Assembly (NCBI RefSeq): GCF_030268085.1
Contig: NZ_BSDE01000007.1
Coordinates: 62,001-126,000 of the forward strand
Length of the DNA: 64,000 bases
Origin: Geothrix limicola
Lineage (GTDB): Bacteria; Acidobacteriota; Holophagae; Holophagales; Holophagaceae
Direction: 5' to 3'
Both the position numbers and the translations under genes were made by a program. Each line of letters opens with the position of its first letter. The first letter of the stretch is position 1. Of the stretch, positions 7,149 through 39,843 are shown in pieces. Below the pieces are notes generated by a model, which was not told the origin of the DNA, searched no databases, and saw nothing but the letters and a program-made list of their open reading frames with translations.

Positions 7149-9650
7149 GTGTCGATGACGATGGGACCGCGCAACATTCCCACTCCGGCCGCTGGGGGGA
7201 TGGCGGTGCCCCAGATCATCGAGGCCTTCGCGCACCGCATGATGTACTCCATCGCCAAGGATCGGCACACGGCCACGGATTTCGACGTCTACCAGGGCCT
7301 GGCCTTTGCCGTGCGGGACCGGCTGATGGAGCGCTGGTTCAAGACCCAGAGCACCTACTACCTGCAGGACGCGAAGCGGGTCTACTACCTGTCGCTGGAA
7401 TTCCTGATGGGGCGGGCGCTGCTGAACAACGTGCTGAACCTCGGCGCCGAGGACAGCTACCTCCAGGCCATGCGCGAGCTCGGCTTCAAGCTGGAGGACA
7501 TCGGCGAACAGGAGTGGGACGCGGGCCTGGGCAACGGTGGGCTCGGCCGTCTCGCCGCCTGCATCCTGGATGCCGCGGCCACGCTGGAGCTGCCCTTCTA
7601 TGGCTACGGCATCCGTTACGAGTACGGCATCTTCCAGCAGCGGATCCTCGACGGCCAGCAGGTGGAGTATCCCGACGGATGGCTGCGCTACGGCAACCCC
7701 TGGGAGATCCAGCGCCCCGATGCCATCTTCCCGGTCCGGTTCTACGGCCATACGCGCGGCTCCTTCGACGCCACGGGTCGCTATCACGTGGATTGGCTCG
7801 ACACGCAGGATGTGTGGGCCATGGCCTACGACACGCCGGTGGCGGGCTTCCGCAACGGAACGGTGAACACCCTGCGGCTGTGGTCCGCCAAGTCCAGCCG
7901 TGAATTCGACCTGGCCCACTTCAACTCGGGCGAGTACGTCCGGGCGGTGGAGGACAAGACCCATTCGGAAAACATCTCCAAGGTCCTCTACCCGGCCGAT
8001 GACCAGAGTGCGGGCAAGGAGCTGCGCCTCAAGCAGCAGTACTTCTTCGTGTCGGCCACGCTGCAGGATGTGGTGCGCCGCTTCAAGAAACGGCCCAGCT
8101 GGCGCTGGGAGGAGCTGCCGGACAAGGTGGCCATCCAGATGAACGACACCCATCCGGCCCTGGTGGTGCCCGAGCTGATGCGCGTGCTGCTGGACCAGGA
8201 GGGCCTGGAATGGGACCTGGCCTGGTCCCTCACCCAGCAGGTCTGCGCCTACACGAACCACACGATCCTTCCCGAGGCCATGGAGGTCTGGCCCATGGAT
8301 CTCTGGCGCAACCTCCTGCCGCGCCACGTGGAGATCGTCGAGGAGATCGACCGCCGGTTCCGCCTGGCCGTGCGCGCGCGCTATCCCTTCGACGACGCGA
8401 AGCTCCAGCGCCTGGCCATCGTCGATCACGGCCACAGCGTGCGGATGGCCAACCTGGCCATCGTGGGCAGCCATTCGGTCAACGGCGTGGCCCAGCTCCA
8501 CACCGATATCTTGAAGGCCTCCACCTTCGCCGAAATGAACGAGCTGTTCCCCGGCCGGATCAACAACAAGACCAACGGCATCACGCCCCGGCGCTGGCTT
8601 CTCAAGAGCAATCCGGACCTGGCCGCTCTGGTCAGCGAGGCCATCGGAGACCGGTGGACCAAGGATCTGGACGCCCTGCGGGGCCTGGAACCTTTCGCGA
8701 CGGATGCGGCCTTCCAGGAGCGCTGGACGCGGGTGAAGCGCCGCAACAAGGAACGCCTGGCCGACTGGGGCCGGCGCACCCAGGAATTCGCCCTCGATCC
8801 CGCCTTCCTCTTCGATGTGCAGGTGAAGCGGATCCACGAGTACAAGCGTCAGCTGCTGAACCTGCTGCACGTCGCCACGCTCTGGAACCGTCTCCGCGAC
8901 GGCGTGGACGGAGGCGTGCCGCGAGCGGTCCTGATCGGCGGCAAGGCCGCCCCCGCCTACTGGGCGGCGAAGCAGATCATCCACCTGGCCAATGCCATGG
9001 CCCGCGCCATCGGCGAGGATCCCGCCGCCAAAGGGCGCCTCAGCCTGGCCTTCCTGCCCAATTACCGGGTGTCCCTGGCGGAGGTGGTGTTCCCCGCCAC
9101 GGAGCTGTCCGAGCAGATCTCCACCGCGGGCACCGAGGCCTCGGGTACGGGCAACATGAAGGCCGCGCTCAACGGCGCCCTCACCATCGGCACGCTGGAT
9201 GGCGCCAACGTGGAGATCCGCGAAGAGGTGGGTGACCCCAACATCTTCATCTTCGGACACACGGCGGAAGGCATCGTGCGGCTGCGGGACGCGGGCTACA
9301 AGCCGCGGGACTGGGCCATGGCCCACCCGGAGCTCAGGCGGGCCATCGACACCATCGGGAACCTGGAGGGCGGGCGTTTCCGGGCCCTGGCCTGGGCCCT
9401 GATGGATTCGGACCACTACTTCCACTGTGCCGACTACGCCTCGTACCTGGAAACCCAGGAGCGCGTGTCGGCCACCTATCAAAAGCCTGCCGAATGGGCT
9501 CGCATGTCCATCCTCAATGTGGCGGGCATGGGCAAGTTCTCCATCGACCGCACGGTGAGCGAGTACGCTCGGGATATCTGGAACGCCCATGCGGTGCCGG
9601 TGGAAGGGCCCCCGCCTGAACCGTCCATGCAACCGGCTTTGAGGCTCTGA
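7149..9650 (+). CDS. glgP: Glycogen/alpha-glucan phosphorylase
   Basis: 833 aa, standard length. It releases glucose-1-phosphate from alpha-1,4-glucans using pyridoxal phosphate. The PLP lysine is in EASGTGNMK (K671 from GTG 7149), followed by the conserved NGALTIGTLDGANVEI. Other family blocks are GNGGLGRLAAC, QMNDTHPAL, NHTILPEA, VKRIHEYKRQ and NKTNGITPRRW. Start codons GTG 7149, ATG 7155 and ATG 7161 are all in frame; the G-run 7144-7149 spaces best with 7155, so the true protein may be two residues shorter. It is followed by pfkA (32-bp gap) and aldolase, giving a glycogen-to-glycolysis gene order. Confidence 0.97.
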   Translation: MSMTMGPRNIPTPAAGGMAVPQIIEAFAHRMMYSIAKDRHTATDFDVYQGLAFAVRDRLMERWFKTQSTYYLQDAKRVYYLSLEFLMGRALLNNVLNLGAEDSYLQAMRELGFKLEDIGEQEWDAGLGNGGLGRLAACILDAAATLELPFYGYGIRYEYGIFQQRILDGQQVEYPDGWLRYGNPWEIQRPDAIFPVRFYGHTRGSFDATGRYHVDWLDTQDVWAMAYDTPVAGFRNGTVNTLRLWSAKSSREFDLAHFNSGEYVRAVEDKTHSENISKVLYPADDQSAGKELRLKQQYFFVSATLQDVVRRFKKRPSWRWEELPDKVAIQMNDTHPALVVPELMRVLLDQEGLEWDLAWSLTQQVCAYTNHTILPEAMEVWPMDLWRNLLPRHVEIVEEIDRRFRLAVRARYPFDDAKLQRLAIVDHGHSVRMANLAIVGSHSVNGVAQLHTDILKASTFAEMNELFPGRINNKTNGITPRRWLLKSNPDLAALVSEAIGDRWTKDLDALRGLEPFATDAAFQERWTRVKRRNKERLADWGRRTQEFALDPAFLFDVQVKRIHEYKRQLLNLLHVATLWNRLRDGVDGGVPRAVLIGGKAAPAYWAAKQIIHLANAMARAIGEDPAAKGRLSLAFLPNYRVSLAEVVFPATELSEQISTAGTEASGTGNMKAALNGALTIGTLDGANVEIREEVGDPNIFIFGHTAEGIVRLRDAGYKPRDWAMAHPELRRAIDTIGNLEGGRFRALAWALMDSDHYFHCADYASYLETQERVSATYQKPAEWARMSILNVAGMGKFSIDRTVSEYARDIWNAHAVPVEGPPPEPSMQPALRL

Positions 9651-12732: not shown

Positions 12733-14706
12733 CTAGGCGGGTTGCGGCGCGGGGCCGCCAGGTTGGGGATCGGACTCGGGGGAGGCGGGCTGGGGCGGCT
12801 GGCCCAGGTAGGCCTCCACCACCTTCGGATGGCGCTTCACTTCGTCGGGCGCGCCCTCGGCGATGACCTTGCCGCCATCCAGCACGGTCACGGTGCTGCA
12901 CAGCTCGCTGACGACATCCATGTGGTGCTCGATGAGGATGATGGTGATGCCGCGCTGGTGCACCCGCTTGATGATCTCGATCTGCTGCAGCACGTCCGGG
13001 TGCGCCAAGCCCGCCGCGGGCTCGTCCAGGATGAGCAGGTCGGGCTTGCGGGCCAGGGCCCGGGCGATCTCCAGGAAGCGCTGGGCGCCGTAGGTCAGGT
13101 CCTTGGCTTTGTTGAGGGCCTGGCCCCGGAGTCCGATGAGATTGAGCAGGGCCAGGGCGTCCGCCCGCGCGCGGCGCTCCTCCGCGCGGCCGAGGCCGAA
13201 CAGCACCATGGGCAGGGGGCTGCGGTACACGCCCTTCAGCGCGACCATCACGTTCTCCAGCGCCGTCAGTTCGCCGAAGAGCTGGAGGTTCTGGAAGGTC
13301 CGCGCCACGCCCGCCCGGGCCACGCGGAAGAGGCTGCCCGTGGGCAGGGCTGAGCCGCGCAGGAGCACGCGGCCTGAACTGGGCGTGTAGAGGCCGGAGA
13401 TGACGTTCACCACCGTGCTCTTGCCCGATCCGTTGGGCCCGATGAGGCCGTGGATGGCGCCTGATTGGACGCTCACCGACAGGCCGTCCACGGCCTTCAC
13501 GCCGCCGAAATGGCGCTTGAGATCCTCGAGCACCAGCAGGGGGGCGCCGTCGGCGGGCCGTGACGGCAGGACGTCTTCGAGGGCCGAAGGTTCGGGCAGC
13601 GGCGCGTGAGGCACGCGGAAGAGGCGGGCGAGGAAATGCGAGAGGAAACCCATGAGGCCCTCGGGCAGGCCCACCACCACGGAGAAGAGCATCAGCGCGA
13701 AGATGGCCTTGCGCCAATCTTCGGTGTTCTCGACGAGAAAGCCCCCCACCACCAGCAGGCCCATGGCGACGACGGGGGCCAGGGCCTGGAAGGGCCGCGT
13801 CGTCTGCTTCGCCAGTCCGCGCAGGCCCGCGGCGAGGGCCGCCGCGAATCCCAGGCCCGAGAAGATCTGGAAGAGGTGGCGGTTCGACAGCAGGTTGGGC
13901 AGGAGGACGATGACCGAGGACCCCACGAAGGCGCCCCAGAGGCTCTTGCGGCCCCCCAGCACCACGCCCAGCAGCAGGATGATCATCAGGTCGTAGGTGA
14001 AACTCTGGGGCTGGAGGTACTGGAAGTTGAAGGCGTAGAGCCCGCCGGCCAGCCCGCCCAGGCCCGAGCCCAGCGCGAAGGCCGCGACCTTGTGCCGGTA
14101 GGTGCCGACACCCATGGCATCCGTGGCGATGGGGCTGTCGCGCAGGGCCTCGAAGGCGCGTCCCCACTGGGAGGCCAGGAGGTTGCGCATGAGCATCCAC
14201 ACCACCGCCAGCAGGGCCATGCAGAGCCAGTAGAAGAGGGGCGGCGTCAGCACGTGCCCGAAGACCGGCGGGCGGCTGAGGCTGAGGCCCTGGGCGCCCC
14301 CCGTGAGGCTTTCGAGTTCGTTCAACGCCGTGGTGCTGAGGGCGGCGAAGCTGAGGGTGGCCAGGGCGAACTGGGGGCCTTCGAGCCGCAGCGCGGGCAG
14401 GGCGAGCAGGCCACCCAGCAGCAGGCCGACGGCCATGGCGGCCAGCAGGGCCGGGCCCATGCCGAGCCCCAGCTTCGTGACGACGAGGCCGGCGGTGTAG
14501 GCGCCCAGGCCCAGGAAGGCCACGTGGCCGAGGTTCACCTGGCCCAGGTAGCCCACGGTGACATCCAGGCCGATGAGCAGGATGCCGTAGATGGCGAGCA
14601 GCGTGAGCAGACCCAGGGCGTAGGGGTTCACCACCAGCAGCGGAATGGTGGCGAGGCAGGCGAAGACGATGAGTTCGGCACCACGGAGGAGGAGGATCCG
14701 CTTCAT
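12733..14706 (-). CDS. livMG: Fused LivM permease - LivG ATPase
   Basis: 657 aa, roughly the sum of LivM (about 300) and LivG (about 250). Residues 1 to about 335 are a multi-span permease with the LivM signature GYLGQVNLGHVAFLGLGAY and GGLAGGLYAF. After a linker and one more possible membrane stretch (about 325-370) the LivG ATPase runs from about 388: GPNGSGKSTV (Walker A), LTYGAQRFLEIARAL (signature), LLILDEPAAGLAHP (Walker B), then LIEHHMDVV. The tail is Pro/Gln-rich. No stop or frame break is visible at the junction, so this is a true fusion. livH ends 1 bp upstream and livF starts 8 bp downstream. Confidence 0.95.
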   Translation of the reverse strand: MKRILLLRGAELIVFACLATIPLLVVNPYALGLLTLLAIYGILLIGLDVTVGYLGQVNLGHVAFLGLGAYTAGLVVTKLGLGMGPALLAAMAVGLLLGGLLALPALRLEGPQFALATLSFAALSTTALNELESLTGGAQGLSLSRPPVFGHVLTPPLFYWLCMALLAVVWMLMRNLLASQWGRAFEALRDSPIATDAMGVGTYRHKVAAFALGSGLGGLAGGLYAFNFQYLQPQSFTYDLMIILLLGVVLGGRKSLWGAFVGSSVIVLLPNLLSNRHLFQIFSGLGFAAALAAGLRGLAKQTTRPFQALAPVVAMGLLVVGGFLVENTEDWRKAIFALMLFSVVVGLPEGLMGFLSHFLARLFRVPHAPLPEPSALEDVLPSRPADGAPLLVLEDLKRHFGGVKAVDGLSVSVQSGAIHGLIGPNGSGKSTVVNVISGLYTPSSGRVLLRGSALPTGSLFRVARAGVARTFQNLQLFGELTALENVMVALKGVYRSPLPMVLFGLGRAEERRARADALALLNLIGLRGQALNKAKDLTYGAQRFLEIARALARKPDLLILDEPAAGLAHPDVLQQIEIIKRVHQRGITIILIEHHMDVVSELCSTVTVLDGGKVIAEGAPDEVKRHPKVVEAYLGQPPQPASPESDPQPGGPAPQPA

Positions 14707-14707
14707 C

Positions 14708-15586
14708 TCACACCTTCCGGATCGTGGCCTTGCCGAACACCCCGTTGGGGCGCAGGGCCAGGGCCAGGATGAGCAGCACGAGGCCCGGGGCCTCGCGCCA
14801 GCCGCTGCCGAGGTAGAAGCTGGCGAGGCTTTCCAGGGCGCCGAGGCACATGCCGATCAGCACGACGCCAAAGCCCGAATCCAGGCCCGCCACCACGGCG
14901 ACGGAAAAGGCCTTGAGGATGAGGGCCGAGGCCATGGTGGGCCCCACGGTGGTGATGGGCGAGACGAGGATGCCCGCCAGGGCCGCCACGGCGCCTGATA
15001 GCGCGTAGGAGAGCATGACGGTGCGCGTGGCGGAGATGCCCATGAGCTCGGCGGCGTCGCGATCCGCCGACACGGCCTCGAAGGCCTTGCCCAGCAGGGT
15101 GCGACGCTTGAAGAGCTCGATGGCGCCCATGATGGCGATGACGCCCACCGCCACGGATAGTTCCAGCCGCGTGACATCCACGCCCAGCACATGGATGGGA
15201 TCGGCCGAGATCGGCGTGGGGAAGGGCCGGTCGTCCCGGCCCCAGATGTTTTCGGCCGAGGAGAAGAAGAAGAGGCCGAGGATGATCGTGAGCAGGATCC
15301 AGCCCTCGCTCTTCTGCTCCAGCGCGAGTCGCACGGCCGCGCGCTCGACGATGAGGCCCATGAGGGCGCCGAAGAGCAGGCCGCCGGGGATCATCGCCCA
15401 GTAGGGCAGGCCCAGGTTCGTAAGGGTGAGGCTGAAGAAGGCCGAGACCATCACCAGCTCGCCCTGGCCGAAGTTGATGCTCTTGCTGGTGGCGTAAGTG
15501 AGCTGGAACCCGTAGGCGATGAGGGCGTAGACGAGGCCCATCAGCGCGCCGCTCACGGCCATCTGTCCGATGATCTGAACGTTCAT
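14708..15586 (-). CDS. livH: Branched-chain amino acid ABC permease LivH
   Basis: 292 aa integral membrane permease. LivH hallmarks are SGALMGLVYALIAYGFQLTYATSKSINFGQGELVM near the N-terminus (shown here only as SINFGQGE for recognition) and GILVSPITTVGPTMASALILKAFSVAVVAGL-type repeats later, with about 8 hydrophobic segments. It forms the channel with the LivM half of the next gene. It lies 66 bp downstream of the binding-protein gene, with a hairpin between them. Confidence 0.94.
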   Translation of the reverse strand: MNVQIIGQMAVSGALMGLVYALIAYGFQLTYATSKSINFGQGELVMVSAFFSLTLTNLGLPYWAMIPGGLLFGALMGLIVERAAVRLALEQKSEGWILLTIILGLFFFSSAENIWGRDDRPFPTPISADPIHVLGVDVTRLELSVAVGVIAIMGAIELFKRRTLLGKAFEAVSADRDAAELMGISATRTVMLSYALSGAVAALAGILVSPITTVGPTMASALILKAFSVAVVAGLDSGFGVVLIGMCLGALESLASFYLGSGWREAPGLVLLILALALRPNGVFGKATIRKV

Positions 15587-34127: not shown

Positions 34128-34586
34128 TCACCATTCCCGGTAGGGGATGCCGTTCATGCCCGTGCCCTGGGAAAGGCTGTAGACATCGTAGACATGGCCG
34201 CCCCCCCAGCTGGTGCTGGTGGGGTCATCGTTGGTGTTGCGCAGCCCCCATTCGGCTTTGCCGGTGAAGGGGTCCACCGGGATGCGGCGGAGAAACTTGA
34301 CCTTGCGGTTGAGGGAGCCGGCAGCGGGAACGCCCTCCACGAGGATCTCGAGGCTTTCGGGATAGAAATTCGCTTCGGCGGGAGGCGCCTTGATCTTCTG
34401 CTGCTCGGCTTGTCGCTTGTAGTCATCGATGGCGGCGCGCATTTCGCGGAGGTCACGCCTGAGTTCGATTTCCTGCTGCCGTTTCAAACCGTTGCGCGCC
34501 AATGGCACCACCACGGAGGCGAGGATCATCAGCACGGTGGCCGTGACGACCAGCTCCAGCAGGGTGAATCCGCGCTGGCGGCTCAC
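34128..34586 (-). CDS. Type II secretion/type IV pilus pseudopilin
   Basis: 152 aa starting at GTG 34586, which overlaps the secretin stop (GTGA). The prepilin peptidase site is RQRG|FTLLELVV with Glu at +5, then a hydrophobic helix VTATVLMILASVVVPLA. The C-terminal part (PVDPFTGKAEWGLR, VYDVYSLSQGTG) resembles GspG-like major pseudopilins, where it forms a calcium-binding loop. Last gene of the pilus operon; it is assembled through the secretin apparatus. Confidence 0.88.
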   Translation of the reverse strand: MSRQRGFTLLELVVTATVLMILASVVVPLARNGLKRQQEIELRRDLREMRAAIDDYKRQAEQQKIKAPPAEANFYPESLEILVEGVPAAGSLNRKVKFLRRIPVDPFTGKAEWGLRNTNDDPTSTSWGGGHVYDVYSLSQGTGMNGIPYREW

Positions 34587-36946
34587 TGCACCGTCACGAG
34601 GGCGTTGGACCAGCGCCCGGAAACGGGATTCGTGCCCATCAGGAACTGGCCGCTCTGGATGAGGACGGGCGCGTTCCCGGCGCTGAGGCCTTCCAGTTCG
34701 AGGGTGGCGAAGGGCCCGGCATCCGCGCCCGCCGGGTTGCGCCGGAAGACCAGTTTCAAGGCGCCATCCTTGCCGGGGATTTGCTCCAGAGTGCCGTTTT
34801 CCGCGCTGAGGAATTCACCGGGCGTGACGCCCTGAAGGCGCAGGCCGGGGGGCAGTCTCAGCTCCAGGGTGCCCGAACTCAGGCCGCCTCCCCCGCTCAC
34901 CGTCAGGGTGACGCGAACCCTTTCCCCGACCTTGATTTCAGAGGCCACGGGGGACATGAAGATCACGAGGTCCGAGGGCGCAGGCGGCGCGTCGGCCGGC
35001 TTCTTTTCCTGGGTGGTGTCTGTGGGAGCGGGCGCGGTCGGGGGCGCGGTCGGTGGCGCCGCCGGGGGGGCGGCTGGAGCGGTCGAGGGTGGCGCTGCGG
35101 GAGGCTGCACGGCCGGGGGCTGGGCGGGACTGAGCGGCGCGGGCTGGGCTGTGGGCTGGGTGGCAGGCGGATTCACGGCTGTGGCGGGCTTGGTCGTGGT
35201 GGCAGGCGCTGGCGTCTTCTTCGGTGCGACCGGAGAGAATGGGCCGGCCTTGGAGGTGGCGTCATCCGGATTGAAGGGCGCCATGTCCTGCTCGGTCAGG
35301 ACGGGCTTGCGGACGAGCACGGCGCGGATGGTGAGGATCACGTCGGTCTTGGCCTTGCTGTTGTGCGTGTTGCCGAACAGCCGGCCTACGAGCGGGATGT
35401 CGGCGAGTCCCCAGATGCCCTGGAGGCTCTTCTGCTCCTCGTCCTTCAGCAGGCCGCCGAAGATGGCGGTCTCGCCGTCCCGTAGGCGAGCGGAGGTCTT
35501 GATCTCGCGCTGGCCCAGGTCCGGGCGGCCAGGCGTGGAGCCCGATTTCAGCGTCGTCACGGTGCTGTCGATCTTCAGCGTGACTTCCCCGTTGTTGTGA
35601 ACACGGGGCTCCACCTTGATCTTCACGCCCACGTTCTCGTAGGAGAAGGAGGTCTGGCCGACACCGCCCAGCAGGGAGGAAGCGCCGGCGGTGGCGCCCG
35701 TGGTGCCGGTGGGCAGGGAGAGCTGGCTCTGGGTGGTGGAGATCTTTTCGCCGATGTTCACTTCGCCGGTTTCGCCCGAGGCGACCCGCACATTCGGGCT
35801 GGCCACCATGCGCGCATCGCCGTTGCTCTTGAGGAAGTCGAGGGCCAGGTTGGGGAAGAGCACGCGAATGTCGGCGGTGTGGATCTTGGTGAATCCCGAA
35901 TTGGTGTTCATGCCCGAGGTGTTGTTCACCGTGGTCGCGCCGAAACGGTACGTGCCCGAAGTATCCGAGGCGTTCAGCACCGGCAGCAGGCCCACCTGCT
36001 CCAGCGTGTTCTCGGTGACTTCCATCAGCTCGAAGTAGACCATGACCTCGGCCTTGCCCTTGTCGAGGGTGCGCACCACCTGGTCGACGATGGCCAGTTC
36101 CGTCGGCTTGGCCCGCACGATGATCGCGTTGGTACGCTTGTCCGTGAACACCTTGAGCTGGTTGTTGAGGGTCGTGAGGGTCTGCCGGAGTTCCTGGGGA
36201 TCGGCGAAGGACAGGTAGTAGGTCTTGATGATCTGGTTTTCGTAGGCTTCGCGGTTCTGGGGGCTGTTCTTGAAGATCATGATGGTGTTCTTGTCGAGCA
36301 CCTTGTAGAACAGGTCGTTCTGCAGCATGAGGGTGTCGAGCACGCGCTGGAAGGGCAGGCCGCGGAGGTCGATGGACACGCTCTGATCCTGGTACGACGT
36401 GTGGGTGATGATGTTCACCCCTGAGGCCTTGCTGAGGGTCGCGAAGATCTCGCGCAGGCTGGTCTTGCGGCTGAAGTTCAGGTCGATGCCGTCGATGGAG
36501 CGCGGGTTGAGCTGGATCGCGTTCATGGCATCAGCCTTGATCTTCATCAACTCGAGATCCTCGGTGGTATCGGCTTCGGCCTTGTCACGGGCGGCCTTTT
36601 CCTCCAGGCGGATGAGCCAGTCCTGGGCGATCTGGTTGTCGGGATCCAGCACGAGGGCCTTGCGGACTTCGGACAGCACGGTGTCGCTGAACCCCTTCAT
36701 TTCGGCCTGGCGGGCGAGGTTGAGGTGCAGTTCGGAGGCCCGCTGGGAGGCGCGCTTGATGCCGATGCGCGCCTTGGTATTGGTGGGATCGCTGCGGAGC
36801 GCGGCGCGGTATTCGGCGACGGACTCGTCATACCGGCCTTCGTCGAAGGCCTTGTTCGCCCTGTGGAGGCTGCAGCCGAGGGCCAGCACCAGGAGCGCGG
36901 CGGCGATGAGCGGTTTGCGAAGCTGGGCGAAGGAGGGAATCGGCAT
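34583..36946 (-). CDS. Secretin lipoprotein with C-terminal cohesin-like domain
   Basis: 787 aa from ATG 36946, with GAAGGA at the correct distance. Residues 1-25 form a lipoprotein signal (LLVLALGC, C25). A TPR-like stretch follows (27-120, ANKAFDEGRYDESVAEYRAAL region), then the secretin N-domains (about 150-330), and the GspD/PilQ secretin core (about 400-570, with VGVKIKVEPRVH, GQREIKTSARLRDGETAIFGGL, DIPLVGRLFG). A Pro/Ala/Thr-rich linker (about 580-650) precedes a beta-sandwich of the cohesin type (about 655-787, SEIKVGERVRVTLTVSGGGG-like start). It forms the outer-membrane ring for pili or type II export. Overlaps the pseudopilin by 4 bp. Confidence 0.9.
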   Translation of the reverse strand: MPIPSFAQLRKPLIAAALLVLALGCSLHRANKAFDEGRYDESVAEYRAALRSDPTNTKARIGIKRASQRASELHLNLARQAEMKGFSDTVLSEVRKALVLDPDNQIAQDWLIRLEEKAARDKAEADTTEDLELMKIKADAMNAIQLNPRSIDGIDLNFSRKTSLREIFATLSKASGVNIITHTSYQDQSVSIDLRGLPFQRVLDTLMLQNDLFYKVLDKNTIMIFKNSPQNREAYENQIIKTYYLSFADPQELRQTLTTLNNQLKVFTDKRTNAIIVRAKPTELAIVDQVVRTLDKGKAEVMVYFELMEVTENTLEQVGLLPVLNASDTSGTYRFGATTVNNTSGMNTNSGFTKIHTADIRVLFPNLALDFLKSNGDARMVASPNVRVASGETGEVNIGEKISTTQSQLSLPTGTTGATAGASSLLGGVGQTSFSYENVGVKIKVEPRVHNNGEVTLKIDSTVTTLKSGSTPGRPDLGQREIKTSARLRDGETAIFGGLLKDEEQKSLQGIWGLADIPLVGRLFGNTHNSKAKTDVILTIRAVLVRKPVLTEQDMAPFNPDDATSKAGPFSPVAPKKTPAPATTTKPATAVNPPATQPTAQPAPLSPAQPPAVQPPAAPPSTAPAAPPAAPPTAPPTAPAPTDTTQEKKPADAPPAPSDLVIFMSPVASEIKVGERVRVTLTVSGGGGLSSGTLELRLPPGLRLQGVTPGEFLSAENGTLEQIPGKDGALKLVFRRNPAGADAGPFATLELEGLSAGNAPVLIQSGQFLMGTNPVSGRWSNALVTVQ

Positions 36947-36963: not shown

Positions 36964-37614
36964 TCAGAATTGGTTCACGGGTGCGCCGCCGGAGGCCTCG
37001 CGGACCTCCAGGACCAGACGCAGATCCGGGTATTTCGTGTTCTGGAATTCGGCTTTGGTATCGAGGACAGACATGAGCTTCCACCGGTCCTTGAGCACGG
37101 AACCCTGGACCAGGGTGACGGGTTCCTCACCCTTCATGAAGGCACCCACCTTGCCCGAGGGGCTGCCCTTGAAGAAGCCGAGGTAGCGCAGGTCCTGCGG
37201 GCGGCCCGCGAATTCGGCGGCCTTCTCCTGGGCCAATTTCTGGCGCTGGAGTTCCTCGGCTGTCGGCGGCGGCGGCGGTGGCGGCACCACCACCTTCACG
37301 GGCGGCGGTGGCGGCAGCGGGGCCTCGAACATGAAGAGATCCCGCTGCTGCTTGGCCACCGGGGGCAGTTCGCCAGCCTTGCCCAGGGCTGCGAGGTCAG
37401 GCAGGCGGCGGAGGCCCTGCAGCTGCCGGGGATCGAGGTTCGATCCGGTCTTGGCGGCCGCCTTGTGGCCCTTGGGTGCATCCGGACTGAGGAAGGAGTA
37501 CAGGGCGTAGCCCATGACGAGCAGGAAGGCGGCGAGGGCGATCTGGGTCTTGGGGTTGGACCGGATTTCCTGGCGCATGGCCTGGAAGTCGAAGGCGTTG
37601 GAGGATGCGCTCAT
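36964..37614 (-). CDS. PilP/GspC-like inner-membrane clamp protein
   Basis: 216 aa. A short cytoplasmic N-terminus, one membrane helix (about 26-44, IALAAFLLVMGYALYSF), a flexible region with two runs of prolines (PPPPPVKVVV, PPPPPPPTAEEL) and a C-terminal beta domain (LRYLGFFKG, VGAFMKGEEPVTLVQGSVL), the arrangement of PilP/GspC that contacts the secretin. The usual PilP lipoprotein signal is replaced by a membrane helix, so it is closer to GspC-type anchoring. It lies 17 bp upstream of the secretin start. Confidence 0.75.
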   Translation of the reverse strand: MSASSNAFDFQAMRQEIRSNPKTQIALAAFLLVMGYALYSFLSPDAPKGHKAAAKTGSNLDPRQLQGLRRLPDLAALGKAGELPPVAKQQRDLFMFEAPLPPPPPVKVVVPPPPPPPTAEELQRQKLAQEKAAEFAGRPQDLRYLGFFKGSPSGKVGAFMKGEEPVTLVQGSVLKDRWKLMSVLDTKAEFQNTKYPDLRLVLEVREASGGAPVNQF

Positions 37615-38192
37615 GCCTCGCCCTCCTCAGCCTGGGGCCCACTGGCCTTGCGGAAGGCTCGAAGCACGATGGTGAGCCGCGCGCCCTCGGGGCTTTCCTC
37701 CAGGCGGCCGTCCCGCACGGCGAAGGGCAAGCCGGATCCTTCGAGATCGAGCATGAAGGCTTTGTGGTTGGCATAGATGCCCACGGCCACGAATTCGACT
37801 TCCACGGCCTCCAGGTCGGAGCCCTTGGTGCCCTCGCGGCTGGGCAGGCCGTACTTCACCGTCTGCAGCCTCAGCCCGTGCTTCTGCACCAGGGCGTGGA
37901 GGGTCTTGCTGAGGTTCCACTGGAGTTCGCCGGCCGATCCCCGGGGCAGGCGGGTCTCCAGATCCGCCAGGGTCTCCCGTCCGCGCCGGATACGGTCCGC
38001 CAGCTGCTGGAGTTCCTGGAGCTGGGTGACCTGCTGATTGCGGCTGAGCTCGGCTTCCCGCTTGGCCTTCAGTTTCTGGGACAGCTGCTGGGAGGCGTCC
38101 GGAAGCAGAAAGAACGCCACGCCCAGGCCCGACACCAGCCCCAGGATGCCCAGGGCCAGTCGGAGGCGGCTTGCGCGAAGGGGGCTGTTCAT
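37611..38192 (-). CDS. PilO-like inner-membrane assembly protein
   Basis: 193 aa. An N-terminal membrane helix (about 10-29), a coiled-coil (about 33-75) and a C-terminal ferredoxin-like domain (about 95-180) with HKAFMLDLEGS and LTIVLRAFRKA. This is the layout of PilO, which pairs with PilN to make the alignment complex. Sequence match is weak; position between PilN- and PilP-like genes supports the call. Both ends overlap neighbours by 4 bp. Confidence 0.75.
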   Translation of the reverse strand: MNSPLRASRLRLALGILGLVSGLGVAFFLLPDASQQLSQKLKAKREAELSRNQQVTQLQELQQLADRIRRGRETLADLETRLPRGSAGELQWNLSKTLHALVQKHGLRLQTVKYGLPSREGTKGSDLEAVEVEFVAVGIYANHKAFMLDLEGSGLPFAVRDGRLEESPEGARLTIVLRAFRKASGPQAEEGEA

Positions 38193-39112
38193 TGGGGATT
38201 CCTTGGGTCCGTCGGGCGCGCCCGCGCGGGACGGCGGCGGCGGTCTCCGGCTTCCTCGTCATTCGTGGGTGCGGGCGTGGGCGGCCGGGGCTGGAAGGTC
38301 TCCGGAGTCGGCCTGGCCGACGGGGGAACGACGTGCGGGGACGGCTGGCCCGTGGGTGATTGGACCTGGGGGGACTGGACCTGGGGCAGCGGGCCCGCCA
38401 CGGCCCGGCCGGCGGCCGATCCCGGGCGTCCCGAAGCCACGGGCGCGGGGGAGGCCACCGGGGATTTGCCCGGCGTTTTTCCGGGCAGGGGCGCTGCGAC
38501 AGGAGCGGCGGGTCCCAGCTTGATGGCCTTCACCTGGAAGGGGGGCGGCACGGCGGCCGTGGGCAGGCTGAGCTCGAAATCCCAGCCGCCGCCCTGGCGC
38601 TCGGCTTCCCGCTCCAGATTGACCTGCGCGAAGACCGGGGTGGTGCGCAGGGCTTCGATGAAAGCGGCTTCGGCCACGCGAGTCCGCGCCTCGCCCTTGA
38701 GTTTCATCACCACCTGCTGGGAACTGCTGCGGGCCCGCTGCAGCGTCTTCAGGCGCATGTCGGGCACCATGCACTGCTCCAGCTCCGCCGTGAGTCTGGA
38801 CCAGGGCAGGCTGCGTTCCAGCAGGATCCGCTCGGCCAGCTTCCAGCGGGCCTGCTCGCGGGAGACGTCCATGTCCTGGAGGGAGGCCTGGATCTGCTGT
38901 TCCTGCCTGGCGGCGCGCTTGGCTTCCTCGGTCAGGCTGACGGCGTCCCGTCCGGCCCGGCTGGCCTGGTGGTAGGCGCGCCAGGTGAGTCCGATGGCGC
39001 CGGTCAGGACGAGGATGCCCAGGCCGAGGCCGAGCCAGCCGAGGGCCTGGTGCCGCTGGCGCCAGAGGCTGGGGCGCGGCGCCAGGTTGAGGTGGAGGAC
39101 CGGAACGGCCAT
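38189..39112 (-). CDS. PilN-like assembly protein with Pro-rich C-terminus
   Basis: 307 aa. Starts with VPVLHLNLAPRPSLWRQRHQAL (the LNLAPRP element is typical for PilN, which binds PilM), one membrane helix (about 29-48), a coiled-coil (about 50-110) and a ferredoxin-like domain to about 200. The last about 100 residues are a Pro/Ala/Gln-rich tail with three PQVQSP-like repeats, longer than in PilN. The tail may be periplasmic spacer. Part of the overlapping operon. Confidence 0.78.
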   Translation of the reverse strand: MAVPVLHLNLAPRPSLWRQRHQALGWLGLGLGILVLTGAIGLTWRAYHQASRAGRDAVSLTEEAKRAARQEQQIQASLQDMDVSREQARWKLAERILLERSLPWSRLTAELEQCMVPDMRLKTLQRARSSSQQVVMKLKGEARTRVAEAAFIEALRTTPVFAQVNLEREAERQGGGWDFELSLPTAAVPPPFQVKAIKLGPAAPVAAPLPGKTPGKSPVASPAPVASGRPGSAAGRAVAGPLPQVQSPQVQSPTGQPSPHVVPPSARPTPETFQPRPPTPAPTNDEEAGDRRRRPARARPTDPRNPQ

Positions 39113-39843
39113 CAGCGGCTCTCCCCGAATACGAGGCGATCATCCATGAGCTTGGTGGCCAGGCCGCTATCGGGCCAGGCGGGCGCGCCCCAGATGAAGA
39201 GCTGCTGGGGCGGGCGCGATTCCCGTTGAAGGAAGGCGGCGCTGGGGGCGATGCGCTCCTCCATCCAGCCTTCGGCATCGAGGGGCTCGGACCATTGGCG
39301 CAGGAGGCAGAGCGTGCGGCCCCAGGCCACGAGGGTGCCGGCGTAGCGCCCGGATTCCACGGGGCTCAGCGACAGCAGCATGCCCGGCAGGGCGAGGGAG
39401 GGGGCCAGCAGGTTGTAGAGGTACAGCCAGCGGGGCGTGAGCGTGTGGACCGTCCGATCGAGGCGCAGGCTCAGCTGGAGCATGGATTCGCGCAGATCTT
39501 CGCGGATGCCCGAAGCCAGCCAGGCTCCGGGTTCGACTTCCAGGGCCTGCACGAAGTGGGGCGTCTCCAGGGCCAGGGCCTGGGTGAATCGCCACTTGAA
39601 GAAGGCCTCCTGGGCTTCGGCGCCGCGGGGCAGCTCGGTGAGGTCGCGCATCAGGACCGAAGGGGTCCACAGGTCTTCCACGACCCAGCGGGTGGGGCCC
39701 GGAGGCAGGGCCGCCAGCGCCTGGGCCAGCTGGTCCTCGGTGGGCGTGCCGTTCAGGGGGCGTCGATGGGTTCCGGCCACGACCCGATGGGCGTCGAGCC
39801 ACAGGAGGGAGGCGTCGGGCGGAGCCAGGAGGGGCAGCTTCAC
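39112..39843 (-). CDS. PilM-like cytoplasmic assembly protein (divergent)
   Basis: 243 aa. First gene of the operon; its stop overlaps the PilN start (TGATG). The place and the actin-like pattern (LWLDAHRVVAG, WVVEDLWTPSVLMRDL, LSLSPVESGRYAGTLVAWG) fit PilM/GspL, but it is about 100 residues shorter than PilM and no clear nucleotide-binding motif is visible. It could be an ATP-independent scaffold. Probably not an enzyme. Divergent from smc across a 214-bp promoter region. Confidence 0.6.
   Translation of the reverse strand: MKLPLLAPPDASLLWLDAHRVVAGTHRRPLNGTPTEDQLAQALAALPPGPTRWVVEDLWTPSVLMRDLTELPRGAEAQEAFFKWRFTQALALETPHFVQALEVEPGAWLASGIREDLRESMLQLSLRLDRTVHTLTPRWLYLYNLLAPSLALPGMLLSLSPVESGRYAGTLVAWGRTLCLLRQWSEPLDAEGWMEERIAPSAAFLQRESRPPQQLFIWGAPAWPDSGLATKLMDDRLVFGESR

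Follow-up and report, generated by a model that had tools for sequence, protein, structure and literature searches.

A predicted cohesin-fold domain on a type II-like secretin of Geothrix limicola and its relatives in the Acidobacteriota

It has long been an open question how folded substrates are recognized in type II secretion. The proteins to be compared here belong to two groups, outer-membrane secretins and cohesins, the latter being protein-binding modules. The secretin structures described in PMC6532946 are inserted into the outer membrane only by the beta-lip and an amphipathic loop, with the remainder of the protein being periplasmic. The current analysis deals with a secretin whose C terminus is predicted to carry a domain of the cohesin fold. 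It is encoded on the minus strand of a 64,000-nucleotide stretch of the Geothrix limicola genome (RefSeq assembly GCF_030268085.1, contig NZ_BSDE01000007.1, positions 62,001 to 126,000; hereafter, the window). A secretin with a cohesin domain was not found in the titles or the beginnings of abstracts among the matches listed in a literature search that covered mainly open-access papers and did not extend to public annotation names.

The secretin gene occupies positions 34583..36946 of the window, including the stop codon, and codes for a protein of 787 amino acids. The minus strand is open throughout this interval, the plus-strand reading of which is interrupted by stops, and the gene has counterparts in 44 related loci. 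The coordinates given in the preliminary description are correct. Residues 372-545 (35312..35833) form the Secretin barrel domain (PF00263), with a score of 118.1 bits (E value of 3.8e-34) against the curated cut-off of 27.5 bits. The barrel is followed by a Pro/Ala-rich linker of ∼90 residues (562-652; 34991..35263), which is variable among the relatives and appears disordered, with a predicted local distance difference test (pLDDT) score below 50 over residues 562-606, 608-634, and 636-652; this is the Pro-rich linker that had been proposed to lie past the barrel. The remaining 133 residues (655-787; 34586..34984) form the C-terminal domain. When modelled alone, this domain had a mean pLDDT of 95.7 and a predicted template modeling (pTM) score of 0.87; the full-length single-chain model is modest (mean pLDDT of 67.6, pTM of 0.34), and parts of its barrel are of low confidence.

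Among the solved structures, the best Foldseek match of the modelled domain was the cohesin from Archaeoglobus fulgidus (Protein Data Bank [PDB] entry 2xdh), with an E value of 2.3e-10 and a template modeling (TM) score of 0.81. Alignment of the predicted domain with 2xdh by VIA-align gave a Z-score of 17.0 and a root mean square deviation of 1.8 over 123 aligned residues, at 15% identity. The best 50 VIA-align rows were all cohesins or contained one; the best 50 Foldseek rows included at least one protein, 9ifr, that is not a cohesin. The model indicates that domain 655-787 is of the cohesin fold, the fold of Pfam family PF00963. The cohesin-type beta sandwich, with these same limits, had been suggested in the preliminary description together with a structure comparison as the way to check it, and both Foldseek and VIA-align returned cohesins, so that the suggestion withstood the test of the model that had been set for it.

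Sequence profiles recognize this relationship to various degrees. The domain encoded in the window scored 15.9 bits with the Pfam Cohesin model, below the cut-off of 24.1 bits, and a search of the same genome with this model produced no match at E values of up to 1. An alignment (A1) was constructed from the window sequence and 39 of the 42 related loci that bear the domain, with L006, L031, and L033 omitted as near-duplicates; the Cohesin model matched 18 of its 40 rows at E values of up to 10, the best of them being 9.7e-7. Comparison of the Holophagaceae domain with secretin cohesins from other families of the Acidobacteriota by hhalign gave a probability of 97.9% (E value of 3.6e-13) over 126 columns, and a profile made from secretin cohesins of the phylum, six Holophagaceae rows among them, matched solved cohesins with E values down to 5.4e-11.

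The N-terminal part of the protein starts with a signal peptide (residues 1-25; 36872..36946) that ends in the lipobox LALG-C at Cys25. Gly24 and Cys25 are invariant throughout alignment A5, whose 23 rows come from the window and 22 loci, and the secretin is a probable lipoprotein, as judged from this motif, in agreement with the lipoprotein signal noted previously. It is followed by a helical TPR-like region (residues 33-141; 36524..36850), assigned from the modelled helices and weak Pfam TPR matches at about residues 29-66; the NCBIfam Tgl model matches residues 68-125 with an E value of 2e-4, far below its cut-off. This region is fused to a lipoprotein secretin, and the weak Tgl match suggests a built-in pilotin. 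Next come an N0/STN-like domain (residues 157-226; 36269..36478), with a weak, below-cut-off Pfam STN match at residues 187-226 and an alpha/beta pattern in the model, and an N1 domain of the Secretin_N family (PF03958; residues 241-298; 36053..36226), recognized with 42.6 bits and an E value of 6.9e-11.

The secretin gene is the fifth in a row of six minus-strand genes, in the order orfL, orfN, orfM, orfP, secretin, and GspG-like pseudopilin. The product of orfL (39112..39843) is assigned to the PilM/GspL position on the basis of gene order, with no family match. OrfN (38189..39112) is PilN/GspL-like and scores 20.0 bits with PF05137, just below the cut-off of 22.8; OrfM (37611..38192) is GspM/PilO-like, with a below-cut-off match to NF040576 (E value of 1.6e-4). 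The Pro-rich protein OrfP (36964..37614) was placed in the PilP/GspC position by its location and sequence, with no convincing family match. The last gene (34128..34586), which at its start shares 4 bases with the end of the secretin gene, encodes a 152-aa pseudopilin with an N_methyl motif (PF07963) over the cut-off and a below-cut-off score of 34.6 bits with TIGR01710. A GspG-like gene is located after the secretin gene in 42 loci, and the other two of the 44 are cut by a contig end. The full six-gene row is found in 35 loci; 8 are truncated by contig ends, and a single one is interrupted.

Two secretins over the Pfam cut-off are encoded in the G. limicola genome. The other one closes a PilM-N-O-P-Q row (L080), and PilB, PilT, and PilC are encoded together elsewhere (L134), with all pilus gene names assigned by position and similarity. 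A second ATPase of the GspE/PilB type (C1:57241), sharing 43% identity with PilB across 394 residues, is also encoded, as is a second T2SSF protein (C6:132325); both are candidate partners whose genes lie apart from the secretin operon. From this gene content, the window secretin is read as the outer-membrane secretin of a type II secretion-like machine that is separate from the type IV pilus. A role in holding pilins, which had been proposed earlier, is unlikely in view of the separate PilM-N-O-P-Q row.

The C-terminal domain is retained, at 131-134 aa, in 42 of the 44 related loci; the other two (L025 and L043) end at a contig edge before the domain. Those relatives that are named are mostly Holophagaceae (Geothrix and its kin), and some are labelled only as Acidobacteria. 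A profile made from alignment A1 has a single match in 55 of 61 Holophagaceae genomes, although in one of them (G201) it spans only 44 residues. In a wider sample of 199 Acidobacteriota genomes, Pfam Cohesin matched 107 at E values of up to 0.001, with none among the 18 Holophagaceae of that sample. Of 30 Cohesin-matching loci, 19 or more encode a secretin within the frame that carries the match, as judged by blastp; this is a lower bound, with the frame chosen wrongly for at least one locus, L063. The wider secretin-cohesin profile (A4) matched 158 of the 199 genomes, with one match in 119 of them, including each of the 18 Holophagaceae. Among the matches listed, these were mostly in frames of ∼700-1100 aa, i.e., of secretin length; the A4 counts refer to domain matches, the presence of the secretin itself having been checked in the individually examined loci. 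Both A4 and the dockerin profile (A2) were built partly from genomes that they were then run against. These profile matches show that the secretin-cohesin domain family is present in most of the sampled Acidobacteriota genomes, many of which have no detected dockerin.

In three members of one family, labelled f10 (G073, G084, and G179), there are two cohesin matches each, both in frames of ∼760-910 aa, perhaps reflecting duplicated cohesin secretins. In another family (f18), four genomes (G016, G030, G043, and G068) are rich in dockerins yet contain no cohesin recognized by either Pfam or A4.

Each secretin subunit contributes an even number of strands to the membrane. Because of this, the tail that follows the barrel should begin on the periplasmic side, and, by analogy with other secretins, the cohesin domain probably faces the periplasm rather than the cell exterior. 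The pore would then be surrounded, inside the periplasm, by at least a dozen copies of the domain on flexible tethers, which could serve as docking arms and keep a partner close to the channel. Such a partner could be a part of the machine or a substrate that is recognized without a dockerin. A periplasmic docking arm on a type II-like secretin appears to be the best explanation of the available data, and it is proposed here with moderate confidence. The dockerin-bearing exoproteins of Holophagaceae are unlikely to be this partner, since gene order pairs them with an adjoining lipoprotein (see below). Independence from dockerins is further supported by the 19 genomes of family f10 that have a Cohesin match, only one of which has a dockerin.

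Several observations weigh against this interpretation. No partner of the cohesin domain was found, and the face that binds dockerins in known cohesins is no more conserved than the other one (mean entropy of 1.52 for each; permutation P of 0.51), with the sheets and their facing assigned by hand. Both the number of subunits and the strand topology are taken from other secretins. The label "type II" rests on gene content, because the equivalog model for GspD (TIGR02517; 146.9 bits versus the cut-off of 351.35) and the PilQ model (TIGR02515; 112.5 versus 284.35) match the window secretin far below their cut-offs. In one locus (L042, from Geothrix terrae, at about position 7636), the row breaks inside orfP, and the contig continues with unrelated genes upstream, which could be either a rearrangement or an assembly error. 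Finally, the domain is not universal in either sample: 6 of the 61 Holophagaceae genomes have no match to the A1 profile, and 41 of the 199 Acidobacteriota genomes have none to A4.

A different, purely structural function can be envisaged, with the linker and the cohesin domain aiding assembly or anchoring of the secretin ring, through self-association or through contacts with peptidoglycan or an accessory protein, and binding neither cargo nor a moving part. Many genomes in which no dockerin was detected nonetheless retain the domain, which is compatible with this role, as is the possibility that the lipobox and the TPR-like part of the window secretin act as its own pilotin. However, cohesins bind proteins, and a long, variable, disordered linker would be expected of a tethered binder more than of a rigid ring component. 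Other secretins do use their C-terminal regions for assembly, via pilotins (PMC6532946). This explanation is considered possible but clearly less probable than the docking arm. The preliminary description suggested an extracellular domain that would retain pilins or exoproteins on the cell surface. It was right about the cohesin fold, and the cohesins of cellulosomes do display enzymes at the surface. Yet such a location is hard to reconcile with the even strand number noted above, the PilQ row is encoded elsewhere, and the dockerin genes have a neighbor gene of their own. Moreover, all but a thin rim of the known secretins is in the periplasm (PMC6532946), which argues against the holding of exoproteins at the surface. 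This is the least probable of the explanations considered, indeed a very improbable one. Capture of dockerin-bearing cargo, discussed next, ranks between these two.

According to the cargo capture model, the ring of secretin cohesins would bind the C-terminal dockerins of periplasmic exoproteins and feed them into the pore. Dockerin-like partners had been suggested as a target for searches, and dockerins indeed exist in this genome: there is one over the Pfam cut-off, located at the C terminus of a protein of 2073 aa that also has NPCBM and Ig domains. Dockerins are found in 54 of 61 Holophagaceae genomes with profile A2 (45 of 61 over the Pfam cut-off), and in all 30 loci read the dockerin is separated from the stop codon by only 0-7 residues. 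Eight Holophagaceae dockerin proteins were scanned, with M4, S53-type, and C1-type peptidase, Vps10/BNR, and Ig domains found among them; such peptidases are common export substrates of type II systems. The secretin domain is the only cohesin detected by these profiles in Holophagaceae, and it was the combination of a single detectable cohesin per genome with C-terminal dockerins that suggested cargo capture.

However, the C-terminal position is not specific to this family: elsewhere, 15 of the 20 dockerin loci with the stop codon in view also end within 10 residues of it (from 26 loci of the phylum, excluding two from Holophagaceae, L156 and L157). Outside Holophagaceae, dockerins do not significantly track the A4 profile, with both found in 52 genomes, the cohesin only in 88, the dockerin only in 10, and neither in 31 (odds ratio of 1.8, P of 0.14 in Fisher tests, which, here and below, ignore kinship). 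With Holophagaceae included, the odds ratio is 2.3 (P of 0.03), and for Pfam Cohesin alone it is 2.2 (P of 0.025), an association that looked better because Pfam misses the diverged cohesins. What dockerins do track is a second cohesin: they are present in 33 of the 39 genomes in which A4 matches at least twice versus 19 of the 101 in which it matches once (odds ratio of 24, P of 6e-13). Further, the four f18 genomes encode from 13 to at least 30 dockerins each, but no cohesin was seen on any of their 7 secretins (30 of the 51 listed secretin matches were read, with L195 left out). The dockerin-binding face of the secretin cohesin shows no extra conservation, and 20 of the 21 inspected dockerin genes of Holophagaceae directly precede a lipoprotein gene whose product is, maybe, a diverged cohesin. 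Overall, the indirect evidence on dockerin binding by the secretin cohesin is mixed and mostly negative, and cargo capture is regarded as unlikely. Dockerin cargo had been entertained as the leading hypothesis; it lost that place to the phylum-wide co-occurrence data, the f18 genomes, and the lipoprotein genes that adjoin the dockerin genes.

These lipoprotein genes code for proteins of ∼200 aa with a conserved domain of ∼155 aa and are located immediately after the dockerin genes (L224 to L244 were inspected). In G. limicola itself (L244, contig C2, minus strand), the last sense codon of the dockerin gene ends at 14932, the lipoprotein domain is encoded at 14345-14803, and the first ATG of the lipoprotein gene lies 8 bases beyond the dockerin gene stop codon. 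The two genes look like an exoprotein/anchor pair, and, by its position, the lipoprotein is a better candidate for the dockerin partner than the secretin cohesin. Its domain may itself be a very diverged cohesin. Comparison of the lipoprotein family with the secretin cohesins by hhalign was suggestive at most (probability of 18% over 102 columns, P of 0.0013). Profile comparison with the Holophagaceae secretin domain gave nothing, the Pfam search of 18 lipoproteins produced no Cohesin match, and no cohesin was matched in the search of the lipoprotein family against PDB sequences. In other families of Acidobacteriota, a small cohesin gene adjoins the dockerin gene, as in L219 (304-1740, plus strand), L221 (3164-4569, minus strand), and L222 (2326-5078, minus strand). 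The cohesins in L219 and L221 have a lipoprotein signal, and the one in L222 is a small protein. These three pairs were read by eye; in L220 and L223, the longest-frame filter left the dockerin gene indistinct.

The two partners could also work in sequence. The secretin of Holophagaceae might use its cohesin arms to grasp the C-terminal dockerins of Sec-exported peptidases, among other exoproteins, within the periplasm and then pass these proteins through the pore, with the lipoprotein from the adjoining gene taking over the dockerin outside. Such a relay is considered improbable, slightly more so than cargo capture as such; if true, it would provide the type II system with an explicit and portable address tag. 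A secretin with a recognizable protein-binding domain on a flexible arm, found in most of the genomes sampled here from the phylum, offers a defined piece that can be deleted, purified, and used as bait.

Compared with the known systems, the window secretin resembles GspD (TIGR02517) in its barrel and N-domains, and its GspM/PilO-, PilN-, and GspG-like neighbors, and in that the genome encodes a second E protein and a second F protein. It differs from GspD in scoring far below the cut-off of that model, in having only the N0- and one N1-type domain seen, and in its lipobox, TPR-like region, and cohesin tail. Residues 26-232, which span the TPR-like and N0 parts, match the Amuc_1098 family (NF042912) with an E value of 1.8e-21; however, the score of 75.9 bits is well short of the cut-off of 750. 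The C-terminal domain shares its whole predicted fold with the noncellulosomal cohesin 2xdh of A. fulgidus but has the low sequence identity given above and is carried on a secretin. Likewise, the small cohesins encoded next to the dockerin genes in L219, L221, and L222 are related to the secretin cohesin and are matched by the same profile, but they are separate proteins, whereas the cohesin encoded in the window is a part of the secretin itself.

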